26,978 nucleotides of DNA, taken from positions 1 through 26,978 of the IMG/VR virus record IMGVR_UViG_3300042197_002783. One strand, 5' to 3'. The stretch is from a virus. Below are positions 8,065-14,215 of the stretch, piece by piece. Each line of letters starts with the position of its first letter. Within the stretch, counting starts at the first letter, position 1. Position numbers and translations under genes: made by a program. Below the pieces are notes generated by a model that saw only the letters and a program-made list of their open reading frames with translations, was not told where the DNA came from and did no database searches.

Positions 8065-8940
8065 TCAAACTGTAGAATATCCCACAGTAACTGTATTAGA
8101 AGTTACAGGTGTTGCTCCACCAGAACCAGTGACAATAGCTCTGAAACTATATCCATCAGGTCTGGAAGATGTAATGTCTGTTGATGCAATTCCAAGAACT
8201 GGTCCAGCCACATTGCTGTAGATGGAGTTGTTTGTAAGTGCTGTAAATCCTGCTCCAATTGGATATGCAAAATACCATTGTGTTGAGAGTCCAACAAGTG
8301 GTGTGGATATTGCAAATACACTCAAGGTTGTTGCAGTTGTAGTTCCAATACCAGCAACAGCAGTTGGTTGAGTAGTAATTGTAATGTAATTGTCAGCTAG
8401 AACTGCATCATCATTAGCATCTCCAAATGTACCATAATCAGTATCTAAAGGAGGAAGATTGGTGCTAATTCCAGACAGGGCAACTAAAGTCTCAGATTTA
8501 ACTCTAAGATTTCCATGCATATCTGTATAAGTATGAACACCTACCCATCCAGCATGTGCCACTGCATATTTAGAACCAGTTTCTCTTGCAGCAACTGTTT
8601 CATATACATCAACGCCCCTAATCTTATTATCTACACTAGTTGCTTGCAAATCATAGTTGCTATCTTGAATCACATACTTAGGTTGTTGTGAACAAGTATA
8701 TGCTAGTCCAGCTACTGCAACACCACTTAGAAACTGAGTAGTAGCAATAGACACTGTAGTAGCATTAGTTACGGCAGTGATGACTGCTTCACCAACAGTA
8801 TTGCCAGCACCAACATAAATTACTGATCCAACATATGCAGAAGAAAATGAAGTTCCTGATCCAGTAATAACTTTAGTAGCATAAACAAGACTAATCGTCC
8901 CTGGTGAGTAAATACTATCTGCCGTTCCCCAAAGAGCCAT
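8065..8940 (-). CDS. Late virion structural protein, Ig-like C-terminal part
   Basis: Probably a particle component. From ATG 8940 (291 aa) the protein begins MALWGTADSIYSPG, a start I associate with structural proteins of T4-like cyanophages, then runs as Gly/Ser/Thr/Ala-rich beta-type sequence. The last 90 residues (ITTQPTAVAGIGTTTATTLS through TVGYSTV) look like an Ig-like fold as found in decoration and fibre proteins. Reading from 9015 would add residues encoded by the terminator and promoter, so it is rejected. An exact TATAAATA promoter at 8976-8983 gives a leader of about 29 nt with an AGGG site about 10 nt before the ATG. Late expression is well supported; decoration versus neck or tail role is open. 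Confidence 0.75.
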   Translation of the reverse strand: MALWGTADSIYSPGTISLVYATKVITGSGTSFSSAYVGSVIYVGAGNTVGEAVITAVTNATTVSIATTQFLSGVAVAGLAYTCSQQPKYVIQDSNYDLQATSVDNKIRGVDVYETVAARETGSKYAVAHAGWVGVHTYTDMHGNLRVKSETLVALSGISTNLPPLDTDYGTFGDANDDAVLADNYITITTQPTAVAGIGTTTATTLSVFAISTPLVGLSTQWYFAYPIGAGFTALTNNSIYSNVAGPVLGIASTDITSSRPDGYSFRAIVTGSGGATPVTSNTVTVGYSTV

Positions 8941-8975
8941 GTGTCTTACCCTGAATAAAATTTCTGTTCTTATGT

Positions 8976-8983
8976 TATTTATA
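8976..8983 (-). promoter_or_regulatory. T4-type late promoter for the virion-type protein
   Basis: Exact TATAAATA on the minus strand, 36 nt before the ATG at 8940. It overlaps the end of the T-tract of the upstream terminator (TTTTTATAAATAAC). Confidence 0.75.
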
Positions 8984-9012
8984 AAAATGGGAGACCTCCA
9001 TAAAGGTCTCCC
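8984..9012 (-). terminator. Strong terminator after the 59-aa membrane protein gene
   Basis: A 9-bp perfect stem (GGGAGACCT with AGGTCTCCC), 6-nt loop, then ATTTTTAT. It is joined directly to the late promoter at 8976-8983. Confidence 0.88.
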
Positions 9013-9035
9013 CAAATAATTCTTTAATTTACTTA

Positions 9036-9242: not shown

Positions 9243-9250
9243 TATTTATT
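9243..9250 (-). promoter_or_regulatory. Late-type promoter for the 59-aa membrane protein
   Basis: AATAAATA on the minus strand, one base from TATAAATA and within the NATAAATA form reported for cyanophage late promoters. It overlaps the stop codon of the upstream gene and would give a leader of about 20 nt. Confidence 0.5.
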
Positions 9251-10301
9251 TTTTAATATCCTTAAGAATTTTTTCAGCAGCTGCTGCAAGTTTATCTTCT
9301 TTACCCTTTACTGTCCTATTTGCTTCTGGTGGTTTTGATTTGGGTGTAGGAGTAGTTTTAACCTTACCAACACTCCCAGAAGATCTCATTCCAGTGAGAG
9401 CTGTTTCTCCTTTACTGTGAATAGTAGCAACTCTTTCATCTTCTTTTTTTGCCTTTCTTCTATCTGCATCAGTTATTGGATTCTTAGTTCTTTCTGATGC
9501 AGGTCTAAGTTTTGTTTTCTTAGGATCAAATACTCCTTCATAAAATGGAGTTCTGCCAGAAACATAAGAAACAACTGCTTCTGTAGTTGAGACTTTCATC
9601 CTTTGTGCTTGTTGGGCAATTTGAAAATCTGCTCTCTCTTTAGAAACTTTTGCCTTTGCTGCTTTTGCCTTTGCTGCAGCTAGTGGATCTGGTTTTTCTC
9701 TTTCTGCATCACCTTTAGGTGGCATACCATAGGTATCTTCTTCGTTAATATCAACTGACTCATAGATGTCAATAACTTCATCTAAACTAAACATAGAAAG
9801 ATCATATCCTTCAGAAATAAGTTCATCAATCCATGCTTCTAATTCTTCTGTTACTGTTGGTTTAGTATTAATTTTGTTCTTGATTCCTGATTTCACATCA
9901 AGTTTTTCATTCTTAGAATTCTTACTATAAAGATCTCTTTCTTCTTTCTTCATAGAACCATAAGATTTTACATTATACTCCTTTCCATCAGGTCCAATAT
10001 CAGCAACTGTATATCCAAGTTTTTCCTTGGGAACAGAAACCTTTATCATTGGTTTTTTCTTTGCTTCACCAACAAACTCTTCTTTCTTTATTTTTTTCTT
10101 AAAGGAACCTTTTACTTCACCCTCTTCGTATCCTTTCCCATCTCCATCATCATCCCACCATCTTTTTTCAGATGATTGATCTTCATCATCATCATCATCT
10201 TCTCCTTTCTTTTTGGTTTCTTTTTTTTCTTCTTTTTCTTTCTTTTCTTGAAGAGAAAGTTCTCTAATATCAGAGAAAGGGTCTGCCCAAATGTTGGTCA
10301 T
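9246..10301 (-). CDS. Late Lys/Glu-rich protein with an EF-hand-like Asp loop
   Basis: Function unknown; 351 aa, highly charged. After a short N-terminus (residues 1-17, ending SLQE) comes a low-complexity Lys/Glu/Asp run (18-45), then KRWWDDDGDGKGYEEGEV (about 46-63), whose DxDxDG pattern resembles calcium-binding EF-hand or excalibur loops. A helical module ELEAWIDELISEGYDLS follows near 153-170, then an Ala/Lys-rich stretch and a basic, Pro-rich tail. I have seen KRWWDDDGDG-type segments in cyanophage late proteins. SLQE before Lys fits the gp21 (L/I)xE cleavage rule. An exact TATAAATA promoter sits 24 nt upstream. Probably an internal head, scaffold or other virion protein; calcium binding is inferred from the loop alone. 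Confidence 0.72.
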   Translation of the reverse strand: MTNIWADPFSDIRELSLQEKKEKEEKKETKKKGEDDDDDEDQSSEKRWWDDDGDGKGYEEGEVKGSFKKKIKKEEFVGEAKKKPMIKVSVPKEKLGYTVADIGPDGKEYNVKSYGSMKKEERDLYSKNSKNEKLDVKSGIKNKINTKPTVTEELEAWIDELISEGYDLSMFSLDEVIDIYESVDINEEDTYGMPPKGDAEREKPDPLAAAKAKAAKAKVSKERADFQIAQQAQRMKVSTTEAVVSYVSGRTPFYEGVFDPKKTKLRPASERTKNPITDADRRKAKKEDERVATIHSKGETALTGMRSSGSVGKVKTTPTPKSKPPEANRTVKGKEDKLAAAAEKILKDIKK

Positions 10302-10324: not shown

Positions 10325-10332
10325 TATTTATA
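10325..10332 (-). promoter_or_regulatory. T4-type late promoter for the Lys/Glu-rich protein
   Basis: Exact TATAAATA on the minus strand, overlapping the end of the nucleotidyltransferase-like gene and giving a leader of about 17 nt before ATG 10301. No hairpin separates it from that gene. Confidence 0.7.
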
Positions 10333-11440
10333 CTGGAGAAACATCTTTAATCCAAGATTTAAACATTATACCTTCTTCAGTAACACAAATAAGATGATTT
10401 GCTCCAGATCTAATAATCTCTCCTCTAAGTCCTGTATTACAACTTTCTACAATATCACCAACATTAAAAAGATTTCCAAACACATAATTTTCCCTAAGAC
10501 CCTTTGCATCTAAATCTGGTGCAATCTGCCAAGTTTCTTTTACTTCTAATGAACCACCAAGTTCACCAAATAATTGTTTAAGTAATTTTGGTTGTATTCC
10601 AGTTGGCATTGCTTTTTTGAATGTTTCAAAGTCTCCAGATGCTGCTGCTTTTCTTGCTGAGGAAGAATTTTCTTCTGCATCTGGATCCTTTGGTCCAGAA
10701 GAAACTACATTGATTGAACTAAATTGATATAATTCTCCATTGTATTTCTTAACAAGATTGTCAATTTCTGAACATCTTTCTGACCCACATACTATATTAA
10801 TAGAAGTATATCCTTCTTCATTTAAGAAAGACAATACATCAAAGATAGTTTTAAATTCATCACTATCAATAATTCTTTCTGCATACTCAGGGAACATTGC
10901 TTTCATGAAATCAATCTTTACATCAGGAGGTAATGGATTCTTTTTACCATCCTGAGTTCTTGATGGGAAAATATAAAAGTTTCCACCAGATGCTGCTTGC
11001 TTCAAAGCATTTAAAAGATTTTTGTGTGCTTTGGTTGGAGGATTAAACTTACCAAAAGCAATAGTTACAACATCACCATTAAGTCCTTTTTGTTGTGATT
11101 GAGATCCTTTTGCTCTTGTCCCAGATGTTTGAGGTTTTTTGGATTTATTTGATGTGGATGATGACTTTACCCCAACTCTTTTTGGTGCTGGTTTTGCTTT
11201 TGTTAATTTCTTACCTTTTACATCATCTGGAGTTTGATCATTAGATGCTTCTTCTTCTTCTCTTTTTTTATTTTTGTTTTGTTGTATAAATTCTAATCTA
11301 CCCTTTAAAGTTCTTGCTTTTTTTACACCTTCTCTGTCTATCCAAAAACCATGCCCGTCTCCAACTAACCCAAGTTTCTTTGCTTGCTGTGCTGCTTGGG
11401 AAGTTCTTGCTTCTGATATAAACTCTAGGAATCTTTTCAT
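10328..11440 (-). CDS. Nucleotidyltransferase-like protein with a capsid-targeting-type N-terminus
   Basis: Three parts are visible. Residues 1-11, MKRFLEFISEA, closely match the T4 capsid-targeting sequence MKTYQEFIAEA, and ISE before Ala fits the gp21 cleavage rule. Residues 12-120 contain AAQQAKKLGLVGDGHGFWID and a Lys/Ser-rich linker. Residues 124-280 look like a cytidylyltransferase/NMN adenylyltransferase domain: AFGKFNPPTKAHKNLL (128-143) is the HxGH-type loop, here TKAH, and SSSARK (259-264) sits where an ISSTxxR-type motif is expected. The end (320-368) is an SH3/KOW-like segment, GDIVE through FKSWIKD. Substrate cannot be told; NMN, CTP-linked sugars or other nucleotides are possible. 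It overlaps the 74-aa gene by ATGA and ends the methyltransferase operon. Family call fairly sure; packaging inferred. Confidence 0.78.
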   Translation of the reverse strand: MKRFLEFISEARTSQAAQQAKKLGLVGDGHGFWIDREGVKKARTLKGRLEFIQQNKNKKREEEEASNDQTPDDVKGKKLTKAKPAPKRVGVKSSSTSNKSKKPQTSGTRAKGSQSQQKGLNGDVVTIAFGKFNPPTKAHKNLLNALKQAASGGNFYIFPSRTQDGKKNPLPPDVKIDFMKAMFPEYAERIIDSDEFKTIFDVLSFLNEEGYTSINIVCGSERCSEIDNLVKKYNGELYQFSSINVVSSGPKDPDAEENSSSARKAAASGDFETFKKAMPTGIQPKLLKQLFGELGGSLEVKETWQIAPDLDAKGLRENYVFGNLFNVGDIVESCNTGLRGEIIRSGANHLICVTEEGIMFKSWIKDVSPV

Positions 11441-11661
11441 TTATTAATTTCTGAATATATCAAGTCCTGATTGTCTAGAATGTACTGCAATCCTATGCTT
11501 TTGGCATGTAAGTATTTATCCTTCTTATCTTTTGGATCTTTATATTGATCCATAAAAGAAGAATAAAACCTAGAAAAATTTTCTATGGTTTTTTTCTTCA
11601 ATTGTTTAATTTTTACATGTTTTTTATATAATGGAATTAATTCTTTAAAAAATTCTTTCAT
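11437..11661 (-). CDS. Small basic hypothetical protein, 74 aa
   Basis: Not recognised. A Lys-rich, all-helical protein: an amphipathic start (MKEFFKELIPLYKKHVKIKQ), an aromatic segment FSRFYSSFMDQY, a charged KDPKDKKDKY turn and a final helix. No Cys and no metal or nucleotide motif. It is tightly coupled on both sides: its ATG shares one base with the methyltransferase stop (TAATG) and its stop overlaps the next ATG (ATGA). That places it between a DNA methyltransferase and a nucleotidyltransferase-like protein and suggests a fixed expression ratio. A helper of either enzyme is possible but unsupported. Confidence 0.6.
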   Translation of the reverse strand: MKEFFKELIPLYKKHVKIKQLKKKTIENFSRFYSSFMDQYKDPKDKKDKYLHAKSIGLQYILDNQDLIYSEINK

Positions 11662-13528: not shown

Positions 13529-14215
13529 TCATCTACCGTGATACCAACCCTTCCCAGCATCTTGTTGAGAACCACCAGTTTTTTCTGCTTCCTTTGCTCT
13601 ACGCTTAGCCATTCCCATCTTTACTGCACGATCAAAACTTTTTCCATCTTTACCAAGATTTGGTCTCAGAGATGCTTGTTTCTTATCAACTTTTTGATAT
13701 GGGAATGGTTTTTCACCTTCAGTAATGACTTCATCAACAATACTCTCTCTCCACTCTTCACCCATATTCACCATAATGCGTTCTGCTGCTTCTGGTGTAT
13801 CAGCATATCCTTCATCAAGTAAGTGTGAGAGGATGATGTCGTAGAGGTCTGCTTGTTCTCTTCTCATACCAATTGTTAATGTATTACCTTTTCTTTTAAT
13901 TGGAGATCTATTTGATGCTTCTTTTGCTTTTGCTACTTCTGGATTATGAGATTTTAGAGTATTTGTAATATTTTCAGATCTCTTTAACTTTTTGACTCCT
14001 CTTTCAATTGCAACTCTGGTTTCTGTTGAATCTGCACCTGAGTTTCTAGCAGCATTTTTTACATCTCTTTCCGATTCTCCCCTCAATTTGATTGCTTTAC
14101 CAGTCATTCTAAGTTTTTTACCTAAATCTAGATTTTTATATCCTTCATCAAGTCTCTCAGGATTATACATATCAAAATATGATTCTTGTAAATTGCGTAA
14201 TTCTTTACCAGTCAT
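13529..14215 (-). CDS. Late charged protein, candidate internal head or virion protein
   Basis: Function unknown; 228 aa, basic and Lys/Arg/Glu-rich. The N-terminus NLQESYFDMY repeats the pattern seen as NLLEAYQKVY in the protein at 1539-2609 (LxExYxxxY), and LQE before Ser fits the gp21 cleavage rule. Residues about 122-160, EQADLYDIILSHLLDEGYAD then EAAERIMVNMGEEWRESI, form a helical module I recognise from T4-like cyanophage late proteins. The tail is Lys/Gly-rich and ends GKGWYHGR. A TATAAATA promoter lies 23 nt upstream and a terminator follows, so it is a one-gene late unit. The ATG follows nine A residues with no ribosome site. Late timing well supported; location in the virion inferred. 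Confidence 0.72.
   Translation of the reverse strand: MTGKELRNLQESYFDMYNPERLDEGYKNLDLGKKLRMTGKAIKLRGESERDVKNAARNSGADSTETRVAIERGVKKLKRSENITNTLKSHNPEVAKAKEASNRSPIKRKGNTLTIGMRREQADLYDIILSHLLDEGYADTPEAAERIMVNMGEEWRESIVDEVITEGEKPFPYQKVDKKQASLRPNLGKDGKSFDRAVKMGMAKRRAKEAEKTGGSQQDAGKGWYHGR

Follow-up and report, generated by a model that had tools for sequence, protein, structure and literature searches.

The DNA analyzed here, referred to below as the window, is a 26,978-nt (27-kb) fragment of a T4-like cyanophage whose head genes lie outside the fragment. It is 73–76% identical in DNA to Synechococcus myoviruses over the matching parts, and it carries the nrdA/B, primase, helicase gp41, uvsX, DNA polymerase and clamp genes, all on the minus strand. 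An earlier note on this DNA had singled out an open reading frame at positions 10328–11440 as a nucleotidyltransferase-like enzyme that may be packaged in the head. The frame exists and encodes 370 amino acids, but its strand had to be corrected: it starts with the ATG at 11440 and runs for 370 codons on the minus strand, while a plus-strand reading of the same positions was ruled out by its many stops. The product belongs to the T4-GC190/phrog_395 ‘cytidyltransferase’ family (phrog_395 profile match over residues 125–368, E 2.2e-74), a core gene of T4-like cyanophages (PMC3037559). A tblastn search with the enzyme matched 535 phage records, 369 of them at a coverage of at least 80%.

The enzyme begins with a short tag, MKRFLEFISEA (residues 1–11; 11408–11440, minus strand), with a predicted cut between E10 and A11. 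The tag is followed by a small module, which we call the GHG-W module (residues 12–55, SQAAQQAKKLGLVGDGHGFWIDREG to KARTLKGRLEF; 11276–11407, minus strand), a variable linker that is predicted to be disordered (residues 56–121; 11078–11275, minus strand; pLDDT about 40–45), a nucleotidyltransferase domain (residues 122–299; 10544–11077, minus strand) and a small C-terminal beta domain (residues 315–370; 10331–10498, minus strand). Pairwise identities among 44 homologues average 0.69 in the tag, 0.61 in the module, 0.59 in the catalytic domain and 0.19 in the linker; the C-terminal domain, at 0.73, is the best conserved part, and it forms a separate ORF in S-RIM44. In S-SKS1 (HQ633071; L277:870–2130), where no gene is annotated, the tag and module lie in a different frame from the nucleotidyltransferase domain, owing to a frameshift or a sequencing error.

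The genes around the enzyme resemble, in part, those of virion proteins detected by mass spectrometry (MS) in S-SCSM1. The gene at 8065–9015 (minus strand) encodes a homologue of the MS-detected gp277 with 41% identity, and those at 1539–2609 and 13529–14215 (both minus strand) encode partial homologues of the MS-detected gp089. The low-complexity neighbor gene at 9246–10301 (minus strand) is placed like the MS-detected gp280, to which it has no sequence match, and its neighborhood is probably a cluster of virion genes. The T4 late-promoter core, TATAAATA, occurs on the minus strand at 2630, 10325 and 14238, that is, 21, 24 and 23 nt upstream of the genes at 1539–2609, 9246–10301 and 13529–14215, respectively. 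A putative late-promoter-like sequence, GATAAATA, is located 73 nt upstream of the enzyme start (11513–11520, minus strand). The late-promoter motif is no more frequent than by chance, and its placement alone carries information: 5 of its 12 occurrences precede a start by at most 80 nt (P = 0.004). The two gp089-like proteins and S-SCSM1 gp089 itself have N-termini of the form L/F-x-x-L-x-E-A-Y..VY (MKNLLEAYQKVY, MDSKTFNSLSEAYAAVY), possibly another prohead-protease or targeting motif of an MS-detected family. The region 1013–1444 encodes a 69% homologue of an S-SCSM1 homing endonuclease, which is near nrdB there too.

The first residues of the enzyme had been likened to the capsid targeting sequence (CTS) of T4, with 7 of 11 positions identical. 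This count is correct: T4 IPII and IPIII (NC_000866) both start with MKTYQEFIAEA. The reading of ISE before Ala as a cleavage site also stands, since it fits L/I-x-E, the published rule for the T4 prohead protease gp21 (PMC9026906). As CTS cargo requires, the tag occupies the first ~10 residues of the protein. No N-terminus and no internal 11-mer of the 501 annotated S-CREM2 and S-SCSM1 proteins reached 7 of 11 matches to the T4 tag (the maximum was 5), and none of the neighbors in the window went beyond 3 of 11. Suppressor analysis of the T4 tag assigned residues 4 and 7 to targeting and residues 8 and 10 to processing (PMC9026906). In the 44 homologues, F4 is kept in 42 (Leu in the other 2), F7 in 44, L/I8 in 43, E10 in 44 and A11 in 44, while positions 3, 5, 6 and 9 vary; T4 has Y4 and F7 at the targeting positions. 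By alignment, the conserved positions are exactly those named by T4 genetics, and an N-terminal extension without use would be expected to drift as the linker does. Furthermore, the tag was kept in all 80 homologues from viral contigs, which had been fetched with patterns from outside the tag; in 3 of them it begins a few codons ahead of the aligned segment.

The predicted cut site has counterparts in the major capsid protein gp23, which carries FLTE/A in T4 and LLTE/A, FLAE/A or ILTE/A in the aligned cyanophage sequences. The tag site thus resembles one that the cyanophage protease must already read. Of 17 records with the tag, 13 encode an S77 prohead protease, among them every one longer than 110 kb, compared with 2 of 13 control records; the tag-bearing records were picked by length and not randomly. 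As a separate observation, the MS-detected S-CREM2 gp160 (L003:28343–29236) has near its N-terminus the segment GFTGAAAPEGPVAGYDPLMG, which nearly equals the gp23 segment just past the predicted cut site (GFTGAAAPGGPNAGFDPVMIG) and, going by this similarity, is possibly a mimic of the N-terminal segment of the major capsid protein.

That members of this enzyme family associate with virions is already published. Orthologues were detected by MS in purified virions of S-SM1 (T4-GC190; PMC3037559), S-SZBM1 (S-SZBM1_140; PMC9146016), S-SCSM1 (ORF91; PMC9602691) and S-CREM2 (ORF154; PMC10665884). All four are tagged, starting with MKKFSAFLNEA (S-SM1), MRFRQFIIEA (S-SZBM1), MKSFLQFLKEA (S-SCSM1) and MKNFSSFLTEA (S-CREM2), and the S-SCSM1 orthologue lies within five consecutive genes flagged as virion proteins. 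The S-PM2 orthologue (L280:592–1764), an untagged fusion in which the C-terminal part of a DUF6267-like protein replaces the tag and module, is absent from the MS list of the S-PM2 virion (PMC3037559). This non-detection carries little weight, as the same analysis also missed homologues of seven true structural proteins. Untagged homologues also occur in P-HM2, S-RIM44, Caulobacter phage Cr30 and a Klebsiella jumbo phage, indicating that the tag is dispensable for the enzyme as such. In the parts available, the S-SCSM1 and S-CREM2 papers make no mention of a targeting signal (PMC9602691, PMC10665884), and we found no paper naming such a tag in cyanophages within the open-licence literature, outside of which most subscription journals lie. 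Within the literature searched, three points appear to be new: the tag as the explanation of virion association, the way it coincides with T4 genetics, and its occurrence on further virion enzymes.

The tag is also found on other proteins detected in virions. In S-CREM2, 5 of the 219 annotated proteins start with a relaxed form of the tag. MS detected 52 proteins of this phage, and the five are all among them (Fisher P = 6.5e-4): the SAM hydrolase (MKDFDSFLEE), a small protein (MKDLHSFLTE), the kinase (MKRFDAFLTE), a hypothetical protein (MQTFSMFFSE) and the NMNAT-like enzyme (MKNFSSFLTE). An HNH nuclease of the same phage, annotated as Cas9, has FASFMAEA from residue 19, so that its tag lies slightly inward. 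In S-SCSM1, the relaxed tag is on 2 of 282 proteins, namely the MS-detected NMNAT-like enzyme and a 106-residue protein (MKTFKQFMSES) absent from the MS-detected set, and the enrichment among MS-detected proteins is not significant in this phage alone. Over both proteomes, the relaxed tag stands at 7 N-termini, and the internal rate predicts 0.28 (P = 2e-8). Because the S-CREM2 N-termini had been seen before this pattern was written, a strict pattern, defined by residues 4, 7, 8 and 10 of T4, gives the cleaner count. It found 5 of the 501 proteins against 0.03 expected from the internal rate, and all five are MS-detected: the NMNAT-like enzyme (twice), the kinase, the SAM hydrolase and one small protein, with four of the five coming from S-CREM2. 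The S-CRM01 kinase, which according to PMC10665884 was reported in virions, starts with MISFDQFLSEKKS.

In IMG/VR, a DNA pattern for the tag matched at least 120 viral stretches, and 78 of the 83 matches that we read start an ORF of at least 80 amino acids whose start closely follows a stop. When the specified bases of the pattern were scrambled, 56 stretches of the whole collection matched; 17 of these matches were at ORF starts of this kind, and most of the 17 are real tags that fit both patterns. Among the matches listed, clustering by sequence sorted the tagged ORFs into 28 groups, including NMNAT-like enzymes (34 ORFs), DUF6267, DUF5661, GNAT acetyltransferase, glucosaminidase, DPBB/RlpA-like and WYL_2 proteins. 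Two small tagged ORFs (L115:3736–4149 and L151:1211–1858) have N-terminal halves that look ADP-ribosyltransferase-like by eye; neither gave a Pfam match, and the resemblance is only an impression.

The GHG-W module nearly always adjoins a tag. Besides the enzyme, the kinases of S-CREM2 and S-H34 contain it (two copies), as do HNH nucleases and one S-CRM01 and one ACG-2014f protein, and two small proteins consist of the tag, the module and the C-terminal domain with no catalytic domain (L105:1670–2224, minus strand; L127:3797–4228, plus strand). The S-SZBM1 enzyme has a tag without the module and was still detected in virions, indicating that the tag, and not the module, tracks with packaging. 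AlphaFold2 predicted the module with a pLDDT of about 91 in the full model and 72–86 when predicted alone. A Pfam search with the module of the window enzyme gave no match, nor did a search of solved folds (PDB) with the tag and module, from which a novel fold does not follow. That the module binds DNA or core proteins is a guess.

The assignment of the cargo to the nucleotidyltransferases rested in the earlier note on the GKFNPPTKAH and SSSARK motifs, which are present at residues 130–139 and 259–264, and a structure prediction bears it out. AlphaFold2 gave a confident domain at residues 122–299, for which the top Foldseek match was the bifunctional NMNAT 2qjo (E 3e-6), followed by NadD and NadM structures. 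In VIA, whose ranking speaks to the families on the VIA list alone, PPATs came first (Z up to 14.6) and NadD/NadM structures reached Z 13–14, tied within error; examples are the archaeal NMNAT 1m8j (Z 13.2, 153 residues, rmsd 2.7) and the NadD-like 3h05 (Z 13.9). Searches of the PDB by sequence alone, made with profiles of the family and of the domain, found nothing significant, only weak NMNAT fragments. The 44 homologues gave weak matches to nadR_NMN_Atrans (33 homologues, best E 5e-5), nadD (31) and coaD (8), and 41 of them matched PF01467 (CTP_transf_like) at E up to 0.1 (best 6.9e-8). The window enzyme itself scored 16.4 bits with PF01467, under the gathering cut-off of 21 bits, and stayed under every curated NMNAT cut-off (TIGR01526, TIGR00482), with 14.2 bits for TIGR00482 against a cut-off of 112.45. 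G130, F132, N133, P134, P135, H139 and R263 are invariant in the 44 homologues. The loop T136-K-A-H139 of the window enzyme has Ala for the Gly of (H/T)xGH, which is kept in 34 of the 44, and the clade of the window (17 of 44) has a shorter second motif and often another residue in place of this Gly. Activity in this clade is thus not assured.

The domain shares with NadM, NadR, NadD and CoaD (PPAT) the fold over residues 122–299 and, in variant form, the (H/T)xGH and S-x-x-x-R motifs; it differs from them in staying under the profile cut-offs, in having no Nudix or kinase partner domain, and in its extra N- and C-terminal modules. By its modeled fold, the enzyme would be of the adenylyltransferase type (NMNAT, NaMNAT or PPAT), with NMNAT activity itself unproven. 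The name cytidylyltransferase, which is given to phrog_395 and used in most GenBank records, is a very improbable description: the structural and the profile searches both have adenylyltransferases as their best matches, and the C-terminal motif, SSSARK or SASKMR, is like the S-x-x-x-R of that group. We rejected it as the best guess on the Foldseek ranking and the profile matches. The motifs and best profile matches favor an adenylyl transfer of the NMN/NaMN type over the use of CTP, and NMN or NaMN is our first choice of substrate, at a little short of even odds.

A further step of the earlier note, that the cargo acts as a stand-alone NMNAT refilling the NAD that host defences destroy, fared less well. 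Its attractions are the 2qjo match and the nadR_NMN_Atrans profile matches, and the authors of the S-SCSM1 and S-CREM2 studies also propose a role in NAD metabolism (PMC9602691, PMC10665884). However, the profile score of the window enzyme is far under the NMNAT cut-off, and PPATs fit the predicted fold equally well. NAD-degrading defences yield nicotinamide and ADP-ribose species, and the enzyme alone could not recycle them. Every phage NadM is said to be accompanied by NadV (PMC9503650), whereas NadV (PF04095) is missing in 13 of 14 searched records that carry relatives of the enzyme or the tag, the sole NadV-like phosphoribosyltransferase being on L273 (G006), a 184-kb IMG/VR contig. Given this rule, the refilling of NAD is not well supported and we consider it unlikely.

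Taken together, we propose that the gene encodes a virion-packaged adenylyltransferase-like enzyme of T4-like cyanophages that carries a T4-type tag, and we give this mechanism as a whole a probability of roughly 0.74. Late in infection, the tag (M-K-x-F-x-x-F-[L/I]-x-E/A) would direct the enzyme into the prohead's scaffold core, the route shown for T4 internal proteins. The S77 prohead protease would then cut after Glu10 and free the enzyme inside the head, and the enzyme would be ejected with the DNA and be active from the first moments of infection. The cargo is predicted to be a nucleotidyltransferase of the HIGH superfamily, most likely an ATP-dependent adenylyltransferase acting on NMN, NaMN or a similar phosphomonoester. 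In related phages, the same tag may bring in protein kinases, an HNH nuclease, a protein annotated as a SAM hydrolase and small proteins. The packaging proposed in the earlier note is well supported by the conservation of the T4-defined positions, the four MS-detected homologues and the same tag on other MS-detected enzymes.

The virion detections would have a different meaning if the enzyme were an abundant soluble auxiliary metabolic enzyme that co-purifies with the particles, and the motif an unrelated helix, used for example in oligomerization. The authors of two of the MS studies themselves consider co-purification of abundant proteins possible (PMC9602691, PMC10665884), and the untagged homologues in other cyanophages and the low peptide counts of the enzyme (2 in S-SZBM1, 3 in S-CREM2) would fit. 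However, the four T4-defined positions of the motif are conserved, the motif is also on unrelated MS-detected proteins, the strict-tag proteins of two proteomes were found in virions without exception, and the replication proteins of S-CREM2 are absent from its MS-detected set; we regard co-purification as rather improbable. Alternatively, the tag-packaged enzyme may act inside the prohead as a component of the scaffold or core, with its ejection or later catalysis irrelevant. Such a role was suggested for T4 IPIII, whose mutants slow T4 head assembly (PMC9026906), and it would agree with the degenerate Gly in the catalytic loop of the window’s clade and with the enzyme-free proteins made of the tag, the module and the C-terminal domain. 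Against it, the peptide counts are too low for a major core component, and the invariant catalytic-loop residues and R263 argue for retained catalysis. A purely internal role is unlikely, if less so than co-purification.

NMNAT-like enzymes, kinases and a nuclease have turned up repeatedly in proteomes of cyanophage virions, and the authors leave undecided whether these are cargo or contamination. A 10-residue tag matching the genetically defined signal of T4 explains these detections and makes the cargo question testable. The tag also offers a means of telling from sequence which proteins these abundant viruses probably deliver to Synechococcus and Prochlorococcus as infection begins. In a wider reading, to which we give an even chance, one short cleavable tag, often together with the GHG-W module, would form a general head-delivery system of T4-like phages of cyanobacteria and other hosts, by which about two dozen unrelated families are delivered at infection, including the NMNAT-like enzymes, protein kinase, HNH nuclease, SAM hydrolase, GNAT, glucosaminidase, RlpA-like, DUF6267, DUF5661 and other proteins. 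If this is true, the tag predicts the set of injected proteins of a phage from sequence alone.

The closest relatives of the proposed cargo are the NMNAT-like virion proteins of S-SM1, S-SCSM1, S-SZBM1 and S-CREM2, which belong to the same orthologous family and have a similar neighborhood beside virion proteins; the window enzyme is at most about 46% identical to them, and its clade has the loop GKFNPPTKAH where the isolates have GRFNPPTxGH. With T4 IPII and IPIII (PMC9026906), the enzyme shares the N-terminal 10-residue tag with an aromatic residue 4, Phe7, L/I8, Glu10 and Ala11, a phage group with an S77 prohead protease, and a cut-site motif as in gp23. The T4 internal proteins are small and poorly conserved, whereas the cyanophage cargo, a conserved enzyme of several domains, is present in most T4-like cyanophages and, unlike IPII and IPIII, has a second module (GHG-W) behind the tag. 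T4 Alt, an ADP-ribosyltransferase, is likewise an enzyme carried in the head, but it is a different enzyme and is not known to have an IP-type N-terminus. The polyvalent effectors and head-packaged NAD/ADPr enzymes of myoviruses share the idea of enzymes delivered with the DNA at infection; those proteins are large fusions (PMC9503650), whereas the cyanophage cargo would consist of separate proteins with a short common tag that is probably cleavable.
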